A DNA stretch of 56,994 nucleotides from Candidatus Zipacnadia bacterium (GTDB lineage: Bacteria; Armatimonadota; Zipacnadia; Zipacnadales; UBA5352): assembly GCA_029820295.1 (NCBI GenBank), contig JALGVA010000010.1, positions 1 to 56,994 on the forward strand. Direction: 5' to 3'. This document shows, piece after piece, positions 45,918-50,985 of the stretch (positions are counted from its first letter, which is position 1; each line of letters starts with the position of its first letter). Both the position numbers and the translations under genes were made by a program. The notes beneath the pieces are model-generated. The model made no database searches. It saw only the letters and a list, made by a program, of their open reading frames with translations, and had not been told where the DNA came from.

Positions 45918-45952
45918 TTGACAGGTGGAGAATAGTGGAATAAGATACTCCA
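45918..45952 (+). promoter_or_regulatory. rrf2 promoter with overlapping operator dyad
   Basis: Consensus TTGACA (45918-45923), a 17-nt spacer and TAAGAT (45941-45946). A near-perfect dyad TGGAATA-AGA-TACTCCA (45936-45952) covers the -10 box. The Rrf2 protein probably binds here and represses its own operon. The predicted transcription start, about 45953, is only some 8 nt from ATG 45961, so the mRNA is nearly leaderless. The region is strikingly AT-rich for this genome. Confidence 0.75.
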
Positions 45953-45960
45953 GAATAACA

Positions 45961-46413
45961 ATGGAGCTGATCAAGCGGAACACAGGGTACGGGCTGCGGG
46001 CGCTGATCTTCATGGCCAGCCACTGGGGGCAGGAAGCGTTGGTGGCGGGCGGGAGCAGGGCGGAGAGGGCGTTCACGGCTGAGGAACTGGCGGATGCGGC
46101 CGACACCAGCGGGGACTTCATGCACAAGATCATGCAGGCGCTGCGGGACGCGGGGATCGTGGAAAGCAAGCGCGGCCCGGGGGGCGGGTTCCGGCTGGCA
46201 CGGGATGCGGGGGATATCACGCTCCTGGAGATCGTGAACGCGGTGCAGGGCGAGCTGCACGTCAACCGCTGCGTGATCGGGCTGGATGTGTGCGAGCGGT
46301 CAATCGAGTGTCCGCTGCGGCCGACGTGGATGCGTATCCAGCGGGAGCTGGAGGACGGGCTGGGGGGGACGACGCTGGCCGACGTGATTCAGGGGTCGGG
46401 ATGTCAGGCGTAA
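45961..46413 (+). CDS. Rrf2-family Fe-S transcriptional regulator
   Basis: 150 aa. An N-terminal winged helix (NTGYGLRALIFMAS, then SGDFMHKIMQALRDAGIVESKRGPGGGF) is followed by three cysteines, C104, C111 and C117 (C-x6-C-x5-C), as in IscR/NsrR-type sensors that hold an Fe-S cluster. It may sense nitric oxide, iron-sulfur status or redox. ATG 45961 is chosen because the promoter makes the upstream GTG 45925 untranscribed. It is the first gene of the operon with ferredoxin and the CODH-like enzyme, which are its likely targets. Confidence 0.9.
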   Translation: MELIKRNTGYGLRALIFMASHWGQEALVAGGSRAERAFTAEELADAADTSGDFMHKIMQALRDAGIVESKRGPGGGFRLARDAGDITLLEIVNAVQGELHVNRCVIGLDVCERSIECPLRPTWMRIQRELEDGLGGTTLADVIQGSGCQA

Positions 46414-46455
46414 TGTCACTGAATGGGTGATGATCCCGCATGGAGGATGAGATCG

Positions 46456-47175
46456 ATGGCGCGAGGGGTGCGACAGATCGTGCGGATCGACGAGGAAAAG
46501 TGCAACGGCTGCGGGTTGTGCGTGCCGTCATGTAAGGAGGGAGCGATCCAGATCATCGACGGCAAGGCGCGGCTGGTGGAGGACCGGCTGTGCGATGGGC
46601 TGGGCAGCTGCCTGGGCGAGTGCCCGCAGGATGCGATCAGCATCGAGGAGCGGGAGGCGGAGGAGTTCGACGAGGAGGCGGTGGCCGACCACCTGGCGGC
46701 GGCTGCCGGCTCGGCCTGCGGTGGAGGGTGCCCGGGGAGCATGGCGCTGAGTCCGGGCGGCGAGGAGGATGTGACGCCGAGGCCCGGGACGCAGGCGTCG
46801 CAACTGCGGAACTGGCCGGTGCAGCTCACGCTGGTACCGCCGCACGCGCCGTGGCTGGACGGAGCGGATCTGCTGATCTCGGCGGACTGCGTGCCCTACG
46901 CGCTGGGCGGCTTTCACGGGGAGCTGCTGGCGGGGAAGAAGGTCATCACCGCGTGCCCCAAGCTCGATGACGTGCGGCCCTACCTGGCGAAGCTGGTGGA
47001 GATCTTCCGAAGCAACGACCTCAGGCGTGTGACGGTGGCGCGGGTGGAAGTGCCGTGCTGCGCGGGATTGGTGGCGCTGGTGAGGCAGGCACTTGAGGCC
47101 TCAGGACGAAGTAATTGCTTCGAAGAGCTGGTTATCAGCATCGAGGGGCGGCAGCTCGTCGGCGTCGGCGCGTAG
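46456..47175 (+). CDS. Ferredoxin-domain electron carrier of the CODH-like operon
   Basis: 239 aa. The N-terminal ferredoxin domain has a complete first motif, C16-x2-C19-x2-C22-x3-C26. The second is altered: C46, C52 and C56-P, with Leu at the place of the fourth cysteine (CDGLGSCLGEC). The second cluster may therefore be absent or a 3Fe type. A middle Cys-rich loop (SACGGGCPG) and a C-terminal domain with EVPCCAGLVALVRQAL follow. Similar proteins accompany hybrid-cluster proteins in anaerobes. ATG 46456 has TGGAGGA 8 nt upstream. Likely role: electron donor to the downstream CODH-like enzyme. Confidence 0.85.
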   Translation: MARGVRQIVRIDEEKCNGCGLCVPSCKEGAIQIIDGKARLVEDRLCDGLGSCLGECPQDAISIEEREAEEFDEEAVADHLAAAAGSACGGGCPGSMALSPGGEEDVTPRPGTQASQLRNWPVQLTLVPPHAPWLDGADLLISADCVPYALGGFHGELLAGKKVITACPKLDDVRPYLAKLVEIFRSNDLRRVTVARVEVPCCAGLVALVRQALEASGRSNCFEELVISIEGRQLVGVGA

Positions 47176-47221: not shown

Positions 47222-49093
47222 ATGCCGGAGACAGTCAGTCAGCACGAGACGGTGAACGCGCAGTACCAGGTGATGGCGGCGGACGAGGCGACCAACGTTG
47301 CCGATCGATATGAGGCGCAGGGCAAGCGCTGCCCGTTCTGCGAGCAGGGCCTGCGCTGCTCGCTGTGCAGCCAGGGGCCGTGCCGGATCAAGCCGGGGGT
47401 AGATCGCGGTGTCTGCGGCATCGATGGGGCGGGGATGGTCATGCGCAACCTGGTGCACCTGAACATCATGGGGCTTGGGGCGTACGGACATCACGCGCGC
47501 GACGTGGGGGAGACGCTGATCGCGACCGGGGAGGGGAAGACGCCGTTCCGGATCATGGACGAGAGCAAGCTGGACATGCTGGCGTCGGTGCTGGGGATCG
47601 AGGAGGCGGATGTCAACGCCCGCGCGGTTGCGGTGGGCAAGGGGATTCTCGACAGCATGGCGCAGTGCAGCGACGAGGAATCGATCTGGGTCAAGGCGCT
47701 GGCTCCCGAGAGTCGCAAGGCTCTGTGGCGCGAGTTGGGCATATTCCCCGGTGGTCCGCTGCATGAGCTTCTGGACTGCACGACGCGGTCGATGACGAAC
47801 ATCGACGGGGACTACGTGAGCCTGGCGAAGGCGGCACTGCGCATGGGCATCGCGACGTTCTACGCGGTGCAGGTGCCGCTGGAGATGGGCCAGGACGCGC
47901 TGTTCGGGACGCCGCAGCCGCACGCGGCGCATGTGGACCTGGGGATACTGGACGCGGACTACGTGAACATCCTGCCCAACGGCCATGAGCCGTTCATGGG
48001 GTTCGCGCTGGTGCAGGCGGCGGAGTCGGAGGAGGTGCAGGCGCGGGCGCGGGATACGGGCGCGAAGGGCCTGCGCATCGTGGGGTCGATCGAGACCGGG
48101 CAGGAGATGATGCAGCGCCTGGCGGCGAGCGACGCGTTCGTGGGGATGACAGGCAATTGGATCTGCCAGGAGTACGCGATCGCGACGGGGGCGGTGGACG
48201 TGTTCGCGATGGACATGAACTGCTCGGTGCCGTCGCTGGCGGAGATCGCGGACCGCTACGGCACGAAGCTGGTGGCGGTGTCGCACGTGATCGGCGTGCC
48301 CGGGACGCATGAGCGGGTGGACTACGTGCCCGCGCAGGTGGCCGAGCAGGCGCAGCGGATCATCGACATCGCGATCGAGAACTTCAGGGAGCGCAAGGAC
48401 AAGCCGCGGCATGGGGTGGAGCGCCGGCAGGAGATCCTCACGGGGTTCTCGACGGAGGCGGTGCTGGGGGCGCTGGGCGGGACGCTGGAGCCGCTGCTGG
48501 ATGCGGTCAAGAGCGGTGCGATCAAGGGCATCGTGGCGATGGTGAGCTGCACGACGCTCAAGAACGGCCCGCAGGATAGCCTGACCACGGCGGTGGTGAG
48601 GGAGCTGATCGCCCGCGACATCCTGGTGCTGTCGGCGGGCTGCGGCAACGCGGCGACGCAGGTGGCAGGGCTCAACTCGCTGGAAGCGCAGGAGCTGGCA
48701 GGTGAGGGTCTGCGCGGGGTGTGCGAGGCGCTGGGGGTGCCGCCGGTGCTGAGCTTCGGGACCTGCACCGACTGCGGACGGATCGCGCTGCTGGTGGGGG
48801 CAGTGGCGGATGCGCTGGGCGTGGATACGGCGGAGTTGCCGATCGCAGTCACGGCGCCGGAGTACATGGAGCAGAAGGCGATGATCGACGCGATCGGCGC
48901 GCTGGCGCTGGGGCTGTATACGCACGTGTCGCCAACGCCGCCGGTGACGGGGTCGCCGGAGGTAGTGAAGCTGCTGACCGAGGATCTGGTGGGGATCACG
49001 GGGGGCAGGCTCGCGCTCGGTGAGGATGCGGTCGAAGTAGCGGAGGGGATCGCGGCGCATATCGACAATAAGCGGGCGGCGCTGGGGATCTGA
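47222..49093 (+). CDS. CooS/CODH-family protein with altered active site (CooS-V-like)
   Basis: 623 aa, the fold of anaerobic Ni,Fe-CODH. B-cluster cysteines C46, C49, C54 and C65 are visible. For the inter-subunit D-cluster, C37 is present but the second cysteine is Arg45, and an extra C40 occurs. C-cluster ligands seem kept at H255 (NGHEP), C334, C443, C474 and C515, with K552. However, the usual GICCTGNE motif reads GSIETGQE: the ligand equivalent to Cys295 is Glu291. Proteins lacking this cysteine, such as CooS-V of Carboxydothermus, carry an Fe/S/O hybrid cluster, do not oxidise CO, and slowly reduce hydroxylamine. No cooC, acs or hydrogenase genes are nearby. AGGAGGAG precedes ATG 47222. 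Real function: probably redox/nitrogen-species detoxification, inferred. Confidence 0.88.
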   Translation: MPETVSQHETVNAQYQVMAADEATNVADRYEAQGKRCPFCEQGLRCSLCSQGPCRIKPGVDRGVCGIDGAGMVMRNLVHLNIMGLGAYGHHARDVGETLIATGEGKTPFRIMDESKLDMLASVLGIEEADVNARAVAVGKGILDSMAQCSDEESIWVKALAPESRKALWRELGIFPGGPLHELLDCTTRSMTNIDGDYVSLAKAALRMGIATFYAVQVPLEMGQDALFGTPQPHAAHVDLGILDADYVNILPNGHEPFMGFALVQAAESEEVQARARDTGAKGLRIVGSIETGQEMMQRLAASDAFVGMTGNWICQEYAIATGAVDVFAMDMNCSVPSLAEIADRYGTKLVAVSHVIGVPGTHERVDYVPAQVAEQAQRIIDIAIENFRERKDKPRHGVERRQEILTGFSTEAVLGALGGTLEPLLDAVKSGAIKGIVAMVSCTTLKNGPQDSLTTAVVRELIARDILVLSAGCGNAATQVAGLNSLEAQELAGEGLRGVCEALGVPPVLSFGTCTDCGRIALLVGAVADALGVDTAELPIAVTAPEYMEQKAMIDAIGALALGLYTHVSPTPPVTGSPEVVKLLTEDLVGITGGRLALGEDAVEVAEGIAAHIDNKRAALGI

Positions 49094-49350: not shown

Positions 49351-50985
49351 ATGGGTGAGCTGAAGGCGCCACAGTACGATCACTGGTACGGCTACGACGA
49401 GATGACGGCGTACCTGCGGGAAGTCGCAGAGGCGTGTGAGGGGCGGTGCCGGCTGCACACGCTGGGCCAGACGCCGGAGGGCCGTGAGATCTGGATGCTG
49501 GAGATCGCGGACCAGGCGGGCGGGCCGGTGGATGGGCGGCCCGCGTACTTCGTGCACGCGAACATCCACGCCAAGGAGGTGGCAGGCACCACGTCGTCGC
49601 TGCGGCTGATCCACGACCTGCTCAGCGGCGCGGCGGACTACGTGGACCTGGAGGAGCTGCTGCAGGAGGTGGTCTTCTATGTGGTGCCGCGGCTGAACCC
49701 GGACGGGGCGGAGTTCGCGCTGACGACGGGGGCGAACATCCGGAGCCGGACCGATGAGTGGGTTGAGCCGAACTGCCTGGTGCGCGAGGACGTGGACGGA
49801 GATGGGTTCATCGTGGACATGCGGATCGAGCGTCCGGACGGGCAGTGGAAGGCGTCGCCGGAGGACGGGCGCATCATGGTGCCGCGGGAGGCGACGGACA
49901 CCGAGGGGCCGTTCTACGCGATCATGCCCGAAGGCATGGTGCATGGATGGGACGGCGGGGAGATCCGCGTGGCGTGCGCGCGGTCGCACGACTTCAACCG
50001 CAACTGGCCGGCGAACTGGCACCAGGAGCACGAGCAGGGCGGCGCGGGCGACTACCCGTTCTCGGAGCCGGAGATGCGGGCGCTGGCGGAGTTTGTGTAC
50101 GCGCACCCCAGCATCTTCGGCATCCTGGGCTTCCACTGCGGGAGCAGCGCGGTGCTGATGCCGCCGAGCACCGGGACGCTGGACGATATCCTGCCTGCGG
50201 ACCGGAAGGTGTTCGAAGAGCTGGGCAAGCGGGCAGCGGAGCTGACGGGGCTGGCGCTGCTGCCGACGATCGAGTACCGGTCGGCGGACTCGCCGCCGGC
50301 GTCGTTGAAGGGGCACTCGGCCGACTGGGGCTACCTGCACATGGGGCTGTTCCACTTCGAGATCGAGCAGGGGAACATCTACAACGCGGCGGGAGTGAAG
50401 ACCGAGGAGTTCTTCGCGGCCAGCGCCGACGAACGGCACCTGTTCATGAAGGACGCGATGCGCTACCACGACGAGCATCCGGAGCAGGAGATGTTTGTGG
50501 ACTGGCATGAGTTCGAGCATCCACAGCTCGGGAGGGTGGAGATCGGGGGCTGGAAGCAGTACTGGATGATCAATCCGTCCTTCGAGAACCTGCGGGAGAT
50601 GATCGCGCCGGGGTCGGCGCGGTTCATCATCGAGTATGCGGCGCGGCGACCACGACTGGTGATCTCGGATGTGGACGTGGCGAGCGTGGGGGAGGGGATC
50701 TACCGGGTGCGCGCGCGAGTGATGAACGACGGGGCGCTGCCGACGAACATCACGCAGCGGGCCCTGAGCCTGCGGTCCCTGCGGCCGGTGTCGGTGGAGC
50801 TGGAAGCAGGGGAAGGCGTCGAGGTGCTGTCGCTGGGGCGCTACCGCGAGATCGGGCATCTGCCGGCGCGGGGCCGGTCGGCAGAGCTGGAGTGGTTCGT
50901 GCGGGCGCCGAACGGGGGCGAGGTGACGGTGAGGGCGGAGAGCCAGAAGGGTGGGCGAGCGGAGGGTAGGGTGGCACTGACGTAG
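49351..50985 (+). CDS. M14-family zinc carboxypeptidase
   Basis: 544 aa. Zinc ligands H73-x2-E76 (NIHAKEV) and H262 (GFHCG), the substrate-binding Arg in DFNRNWP, and the catalytic Glu near residue 337 (FHFEIEQG) are present. The spacing between the first ligands and H262 is longer than in pancreatic carboxypeptidases because of an insertion (about 130-215). About 130 C-terminal residues form a beta-sandwich (ISDVDVASVGEGIYRVRARV). No signal peptide is visible, so it may act inside the cell or be exported by another route. ATG 49351 has GGGGAGAG upstream. Confidence 0.88.
   Translation: MGELKAPQYDHWYGYDEMTAYLREVAEACEGRCRLHTLGQTPEGREIWMLEIADQAGGPVDGRPAYFVHANIHAKEVAGTTSSLRLIHDLLSGAADYVDLEELLQEVVFYVVPRLNPDGAEFALTTGANIRSRTDEWVEPNCLVREDVDGDGFIVDMRIERPDGQWKASPEDGRIMVPREATDTEGPFYAIMPEGMVHGWDGGEIRVACARSHDFNRNWPANWHQEHEQGGAGDYPFSEPEMRALAEFVYAHPSIFGILGFHCGSSAVLMPPSTGTLDDILPADRKVFEELGKRAAELTGLALLPTIEYRSADSPPASLKGHSADWGYLHMGLFHFEIEQGNIYNAAGVKTEEFFAASADERHLFMKDAMRYHDEHPEQEMFVDWHEFEHPQLGRVEIGGWKQYWMINPSFENLREMIAPGSARFIIEYAARRPRLVISDVDVASVGEGIYRVRARVMNDGALPTNITQRALSLRSLRPVSVELEAGEGVEVLSLGRYREIGHLPARGRSAELEWFVRAPNGGEVTVRAESQKGGRAEGRVALT

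Follow-up and report, generated by a model that had tools for sequence, protein, structure and literature searches.

What is the role of a protein that has the fold of a Ni,Fe-CODH and a glutamate in the place of one of its C-cluster cysteines? The question is raised by a gene in the window, by which we mean the whole stretch of 56,994 nucleotides analysed from a Candidatus Zipacnadia bacterium (contig JALGVA010000010.1). Its frame is free of stops and its 623-residue product has Prismane as its Pfam match (1e-148). It passes the NCBIfam equivalog of the CODH catalytic subunit (768 bits, threshold 478), and it obtains only 60-65 bits from the NCBIfam HCP models, whose cut-offs are 361-367 (for TIGR01703, hybrid cluster protein, 59.7 bits against 360.8). 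The gene and the codons that matter here are the following.

47222..49093, + strand: CODH-V type protein (clade D, structural group D-1), 623 aa, in the place of hcp (PDB match, ligands, TM, tree)
47330..47341, + strand: codons C37 and C40, the type III D-cluster pair, for a subunit-bridging [2Fe-2S] cluster (alignment; motif definition in PMC6344411)
47984..47986, + strand: codon H255, equivalent to CooS-V His259 (alignment)
48092..48094, + strand: codon E291, which replaces C-cluster Cys295 and equals CooS-V Glu295 (alignment)
48869..48877, + strand: codons E550-Q551-K552, equivalent to CooS-V Glu556 and to the HCP EQKA motif (alignment; PMC9311411)

The first-pass annotation had drawn attention to the motif V-GSIETGQE, in which Glu291 was thought to stand for Cys295, and alignment bears this out: the residue coincides with the C-cluster Cys of the D. 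vulgaris (Dv), Thermococcus and local canonical CODHs, and no other Cys falls at this site. Where the Ni,Fe-CODHs have five Cys and one His at the C-cluster, the window protein thus has Glu at one position, and it keeps the ligands that the annotation had listed (H255, C334, C443, C474 and C515, together with K552) when aligned with solved and local CODHs. Since Glu occupies the 291 site in all the full-length close relatives aligned, CODH-V included, and Cys does so in all the canonical CODHs, E291 is neither a chance change nor a sequencing error. A Tyr (Tyr88) is aligned with the acid-base His. The annotation had also described the D-cluster as altered, with C37 kept, Arg45 and an extra C40; these residues are indeed present, but C37-x2-C40-x5-C46 is the ordinary type III motif, normal for the group and common to the window protein, CODH-V and the D. 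vulgaris CODH, and a damaged D-cluster was ruled out.

The proposed resemblance of E291 to the Glu ligand of HCP fared less evenly. Inoue 2019 (PMC6344411) aligned the Glu sites of CODH-V and HCP and took them as identical, but in our alignment it is E295, not E291, that matches the Glu of the HCP motif THGE. According to Fujishiro and Takaoka 2023 the two residues are spatially equivalent, not sequence-aligned and not ligating; according to Jeoung 2022 (PMC9311411) Glu295 is an Fe ligand in CooS-V. Judged from the sequence, the clearer HCP feature of the window protein is Glu550, which stands two residues ahead of Lys552 in an EQKA motif, as in HCP, and whose position is taken by Ser or His in the canonical CODHs aligned.

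All of this places the protein close to CooS-V of Carboxydothermus, closer in fact than the annotation had supposed. The best PDB match is 7b7q (CooS-V/CODH-V; 706 bits, the next being 416), with 53% identity over the full length. The checks that the annotation had proposed, structure prediction and phylogenetic placement, agree: the AlphaFold model (mean pLDDT 91) is nearest to CooS-V (TM 0.98-0.99, rmsd 1.1-1.2 A), with the active CODHs behind it (TM 0.93-0.96), and a quick tree joins the protein to CooS-V, apart from the canonical CODHs, with an SH-aLRT of 100. The ligands of CooS-V of C. hydrogenoformans (Cys295 changed to Glu, His, four Cys, Glu556 and Lys) are those of the window protein, as are its Tyr for the acid-base His, its type III [2Fe-2S] D-cluster and its fold. 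With the Ni,Fe-CODHs (CooS, clades E and F) the protein shares the fold, the B-cluster and four of the five C-cluster Cys; unlike them it has replacements at both Cys295 and the acid-base His, no CooC or ACS seen with it, and an identity to them of 30-37%. Structural group D-1 is defined by Glu at Cys1, Tyr at the acid-base His position and a D-cluster of type III (Inoue 2019, PMC6344411), and this full set is present (E291, Y88, type III D-cluster); the protein reads as a member of the already known CODH-V group (clade D-1). A new ligand variant was ruled out by the same Glu in CooS-V. The residue-level finding was in fact already known, since CooS-V has the motif GSIESGQE, with Glu at exactly the same position, and since Cys295Glu and Gly41Cys were published as synapomorphies of its subclade (Jeoung 2022, PMC9311411).

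The biochemistry of CooS-V has been described in that same study (PMC9311411). Its C-cluster is a [4Fe-3S-nO] hybrid cluster without Ni, which neither oxidizes CO nor reduces CO2; it undergoes redox-driven rearrangement, and a channel opens in the reduced state only. Hydroxylamine is reduced very slowly (kcat 0.13 per s) with reduced methyl viologen, not ferredoxin, as donor, and NO reduction did not rise above background. The potentials lie about 300 mV below those of HCP, and the authors suggested a role unlike that of HCP. By homology, the window protein would have inherited both the Fe/S/O hybrid cluster and the absence of CO activity.

The gene content of the genome, which is 98.6% complete, is in keeping with the annotation's remark that acetyl-CoA synthase and nickel-insertion genes are absent nearby: no acetyl-CoA synthase subunit (PF03598) occurs in the whole genome, and no CooC or other nickel-insertion gene was seen near the CODH-V gene. 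Nor was another CODH, a second Prismane protein or an HCP found in this genome, in contrast to that of CooS-V, which has four active CODHs and an HCP. CooS-V types are said to be confined to genomes with two or more CODHs; this statement is contradicted by the window's genome and by several others in which CODH-V is likewise the sole TIGR01702 protein. One flavodiiron-like protein is encoded. A search of the genome gave no NrfA-type cytochrome c552, so that an internal source of nitrogen oxides is not evident there.

Unlike CooS-V, the window protein is encoded inside an operon with an Rrf2 regulator and an FrdX-like ferredoxin, a cassette that the annotation had not noticed and that offers a clue to function.

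45918..45923, + strand: -35 element TTGACA of the operon promoter, 17 bp from TAAGAT
45936..45952, no strand: inverted repeat TGGAATAAGATACTCCA covering the -10 element, a candidate operator for Rrf2 (motif search, family loci)
45941..45946, + strand: -10 element TAAGAT, spaced 17 bp from TTGACA
45961..46413, + strand: Rrf2-family repressor, 150 aa, best start ATG 45961 (Pfam PF02082, 3.4e-33)
46423..47175, + strand: FrdX-like ferredoxin, 250 aa, with a 4Fe-4S domain and a C-terminal domain (Pfam Fer4 and dicluster matches)

CODH-V comes last in this order, which is conserved in the window's family (f1). The label FrdX-like derives from the linkage of the ferredoxin to hcp in sister genomes, where its homologues precede hcp (L119-L125). 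The arrangement TTGACA-n12-TGGAnTAnnnTAnTCCAGAAT occurs once in the window and in none of 100 shuffles; TTGACA spaced 17 bp from TAAGAT recurs 5' of Rrf2 in L003-L006, L051, L119, L120 and L122, repeats of the TGGAATAAGATACTCCA type are found 5' of Rrf2 across the loci of f1, and a related arrangement, TTGACA...TGTGGTATAGTAGTACCA, stands 5' of Rrf2-ferredoxin-hcp in family f3. The Cys motif of the regulator, C-x6-C-x5-C, fits that of an Fe-S sensor. An alternative GTG start at 45925 overlaps the promoter. From the preferred ATG, the Rrf2 gene begins only some 8-15 bases past the predicted transcription start (45953-45961), with a similar-looking spacing in L051, and the operon mRNA may therefore be nearly leaderless. 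Further 3', an M14 zinc carboxypeptidase gene (49351-50985) follows CODH-V, as it does in L002, L005, L008 and L051; we left it out of the operon in view of a 257-bp gap and the lack of a functional link.

Delta-proteobacteria and clostridia are known to have frdX and hcp together in one operon (PMC1274295). As in that system (class I Hcp, HcpR regulon), an FrdX-like ferredoxin here adjoins a Prismane-family protein with a predicted hybrid cluster; there the enzyme is HCP and the regulator HcpR, whereas here they are a CODH-fold enzyme and Rrf2. The Rrf2-FrdX-CODH-V operon is probably a form of the frdX-hcp operon in which CODH-V stands for hcp, to judge from gene orders within the class itself. 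In families f3, f4 and f10 Rrf2-ferredoxin precedes a true hcp (product 555-577 aa), and those tested score 745-775 bits with TIGR01703, against a cut-off of 361; in f5 the long ferredoxin precedes hcp with no Rrf2 detected, and in f9 Rrf2-ferredoxin adjoins an hcp fragment at a contig end. A second, shorter type of ferredoxin (about 140 aa) accompanies HCP in two f4 genomes and CODH-V in f3 and f8. The ferredoxin tree separates the long from the short type, each includes both HCP and CODH-V partners, and its well-supported branches force at least two changes of partner; the swap is seen even within family f3. CODH-V itself occurs in four of the ten families of the class. What is new, here and in related genomes, is the position of CODH-V: it takes the usual place of Hcp, and the genomes concerned lack Hcp.

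The ferredoxin also has partners other than these two, as L141 and L134 show. At L141:2250-5397 a member of the same ferredoxin family adjoins a siroheme nitrite/sulfite reductase-TusA fusion, and the family may therefore serve several small-molecule reductases; in L134 the Rrf2-ferredoxin pair precedes an unrelated gene. Family f2 departs in its regulator: in L150:4221-4832 and L151:1798-2385 it is a TetR protein, not Rrf2, that adjoins CODH-V, with no ferredoxin neighbour detected.

The two enzymes also avoid each other across the genomes of the class. With CODH-V counted at 54% identity or above, it is present in 15 of these 46 genomes and HCP in 22, with no genome in common (Fisher 2.6e-6); at the level of genera the figures are 10 and 12 of 24 (p 3e-5), these values treating as independent genomes and genera that are related and mostly MAGs. 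For canonical CODH, which served as a control, neither enzyme gives a sign of exclusion (p 0.3-0.9). Across the phylum, 16 of 291 genomes carry CODH-V, about 69 carry HCP (fragments included) and none carries both (p 0.012). The search by CODH-V loci led to 39 genomes, most of them from other phyla; a single one has HCP, and its CODH-V copy has lost all four C-cluster Cys. This copy, from HGW-Firmicutes-14 (L054:7001-8830, the same as L192:2478-4307; 610 aa, stop-free, 46% identity), retains the Cys of the B- and D-clusters, has Ser, Gly, Ser and Ser at the positions of the four C-cluster Cys and Asp at that of Glu550, and lies in a genome with two HCPs and canonical CODHs; it is possibly a decayed or repurposed CODH-V. 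The exclusion is not universal, since C. hydrogenoformans has both HCP and CooS-V in one genome and since clade D as a whole often co-occurs with HCP (eLife 2026 survey).

In that survey, which covered 1,376 CODHs, the gene neighbours of clade D formed no clear pattern, and searches of the open-access literature turned up nothing on a Ni-CODH with Rrf2 or on a CODH with a flavodiiron protein in Methanoperedens. Among the loci compared here, a Bacillota genome has the order Rrf2-CODH-V-short ferredoxin, and the long ferredoxin is divergent to CODH-V in Methanoperedens BLZ2 and one relative. In ANME/Methanosarcinales CODH-V lies 3' of genes for rubrerythrin, FprA (a flavodiiron protein) and FTR, and some of these loci also have a YgaP-like gene. 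The BLZ2 locus (L195:3333-10738) sets side by side a clade D copy, the FrdX-like ferredoxin and a true CODH-V copy (62%); the clade D copy (43% identity), with its canonical Cys (GSMCTGQE), Tyr and a Glu ahead of Lys, looks from these residues like an evolutionary intermediate beside the derived CODH-V. A small cupin gene stands beside CODH-V in several archaea and a Desulfurobacterium (L017, L019, L034, L048, L049, L058).

We propose, with a probability of about two in three, that the window protein is an hcp-like, ferredoxin-fed reductase used against nitrosative or redox stress, in an operon that works like frdX-hcp. Under nitrosative or oxidative stress the Fe-S cluster of Rrf2 would be lost or nitrosylated; the repressor would then leave its operator over the -10 box, and FrdX and CODH-V would be made. 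Low-potential electrons from FrdX would reach the hybrid cluster by way of the D [2Fe-2S] and B [4Fe-4S] clusters, and a small reactive species of nitrogen (or oxygen), for example NO or hydroxylamine, would be reduced there. In C. difficile, knockdown of frdX and knockdown of hcp each cause sensitivity to NO (PMC12915319). The main objections to our proposal are the low hydroxylamine activity of CooS-V, its undetected reduction of NO and its low potentials; the other partners of the ferredoxin, the genomes with both enzymes and the missing NrfA-type cytochrome also speak against it.

Oxygen or peroxide might instead be the main target, CODH-V acting beside rubrerythrin and flavodiiron proteins and sharing the hcp cassette because both enzymes answer general Fe-S damage through Rrf2. 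The rubrerythrin-FprA-FTR-CODH-V order of ANME/Methanosarcinales speaks for this, as do the frequent sensing of Fe-S status by Rrf2 regulators and, as cited in PMC9311411, the tie between the [2Fe-2S] D-cluster and oxygen tolerance in the D. vulgaris CODH. Flavodiiron proteins also reduce NO, however, the partner exchanged in the cassette is hcp, and in C. difficile hcp and frdX matter for NO while hcpR, the regulator of both, is not needed against reactive oxygen (PMC12915319); we regard a primarily oxygen-directed role as unlikely. More improbable still is a redox sensor or regulatory protein that is no catalyst, the role suggested for clade D by the eLife 2026 genome-context survey. The redox-driven rearrangement and very slow turnover of CooS-V (PMC9311411) would suit such a function, as would the association with transcription regulators (eLife 2026 survey). 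Regulation here, however, falls to a separate Rrf2 that has a putative operator of its own; a ferredoxin set aside for the enzyme and a channel that opens on reduction only are what one would expect of a reductase, and its standing in for hcp points to catalysis.

That the protein is a working Ni,Fe-CODH whose C-cluster has a Glu ligand, serving CO oxidation or the Wood-Ljungdahl pathway, could be argued from the equivalog score and from the partial Wood-Ljungdahl pathways reported for the class (Zipacnadia paper). This reading is very hard to reconcile with CooS-V, in which the same Cys-to-Glu change goes with the loss of Ni and CO activity (PMC9311411), with the Tyr at the acid-base His, or with the want of a nickel-insertion gene near the locus; an active CODH was rejected on its residues and on the missing ACS and second CODH. 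Finally, the shared cassette and the exclusion could be accidents of ancestry, a single displacement in one lineage that implies no functional equivalence. Few independent lineages are available, with CODH-V in only those four families, MAGs are incomplete and the ferredoxin sometimes has other partners; yet partners were swapped in both ferredoxin types, the swap is visible within f3, the exclusion persists among genera and is absent from the canonical CODH control, and a similar linkage is met in Bacillota and beside CODH-V in archaea, all of which leaves such an accident with very little to recommend it.

The broader form of our proposal is that CODH-V evolved independently as a second hybrid-cluster enzyme and replaces Hcp in the Rrf2-FrdX stress operon, having been swapped at least twice in the class and being interchangeable with Hcp there; to this we would give an even chance. 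That CODH-V and hcp change places in one regulated cassette points to a probable role for CODH-V, a regulator and an electron donor, and makes that role testable. There is also a warning for metagenomics: since the window protein passes the CODH equivalog by a wide margin, genomes of this kind may be wrongly credited with CO oxidation or the Wood-Ljungdahl pathway. If true, the replacement of Hcp would give the CODH-V clade both a physiological role and a ferredoxin partner.
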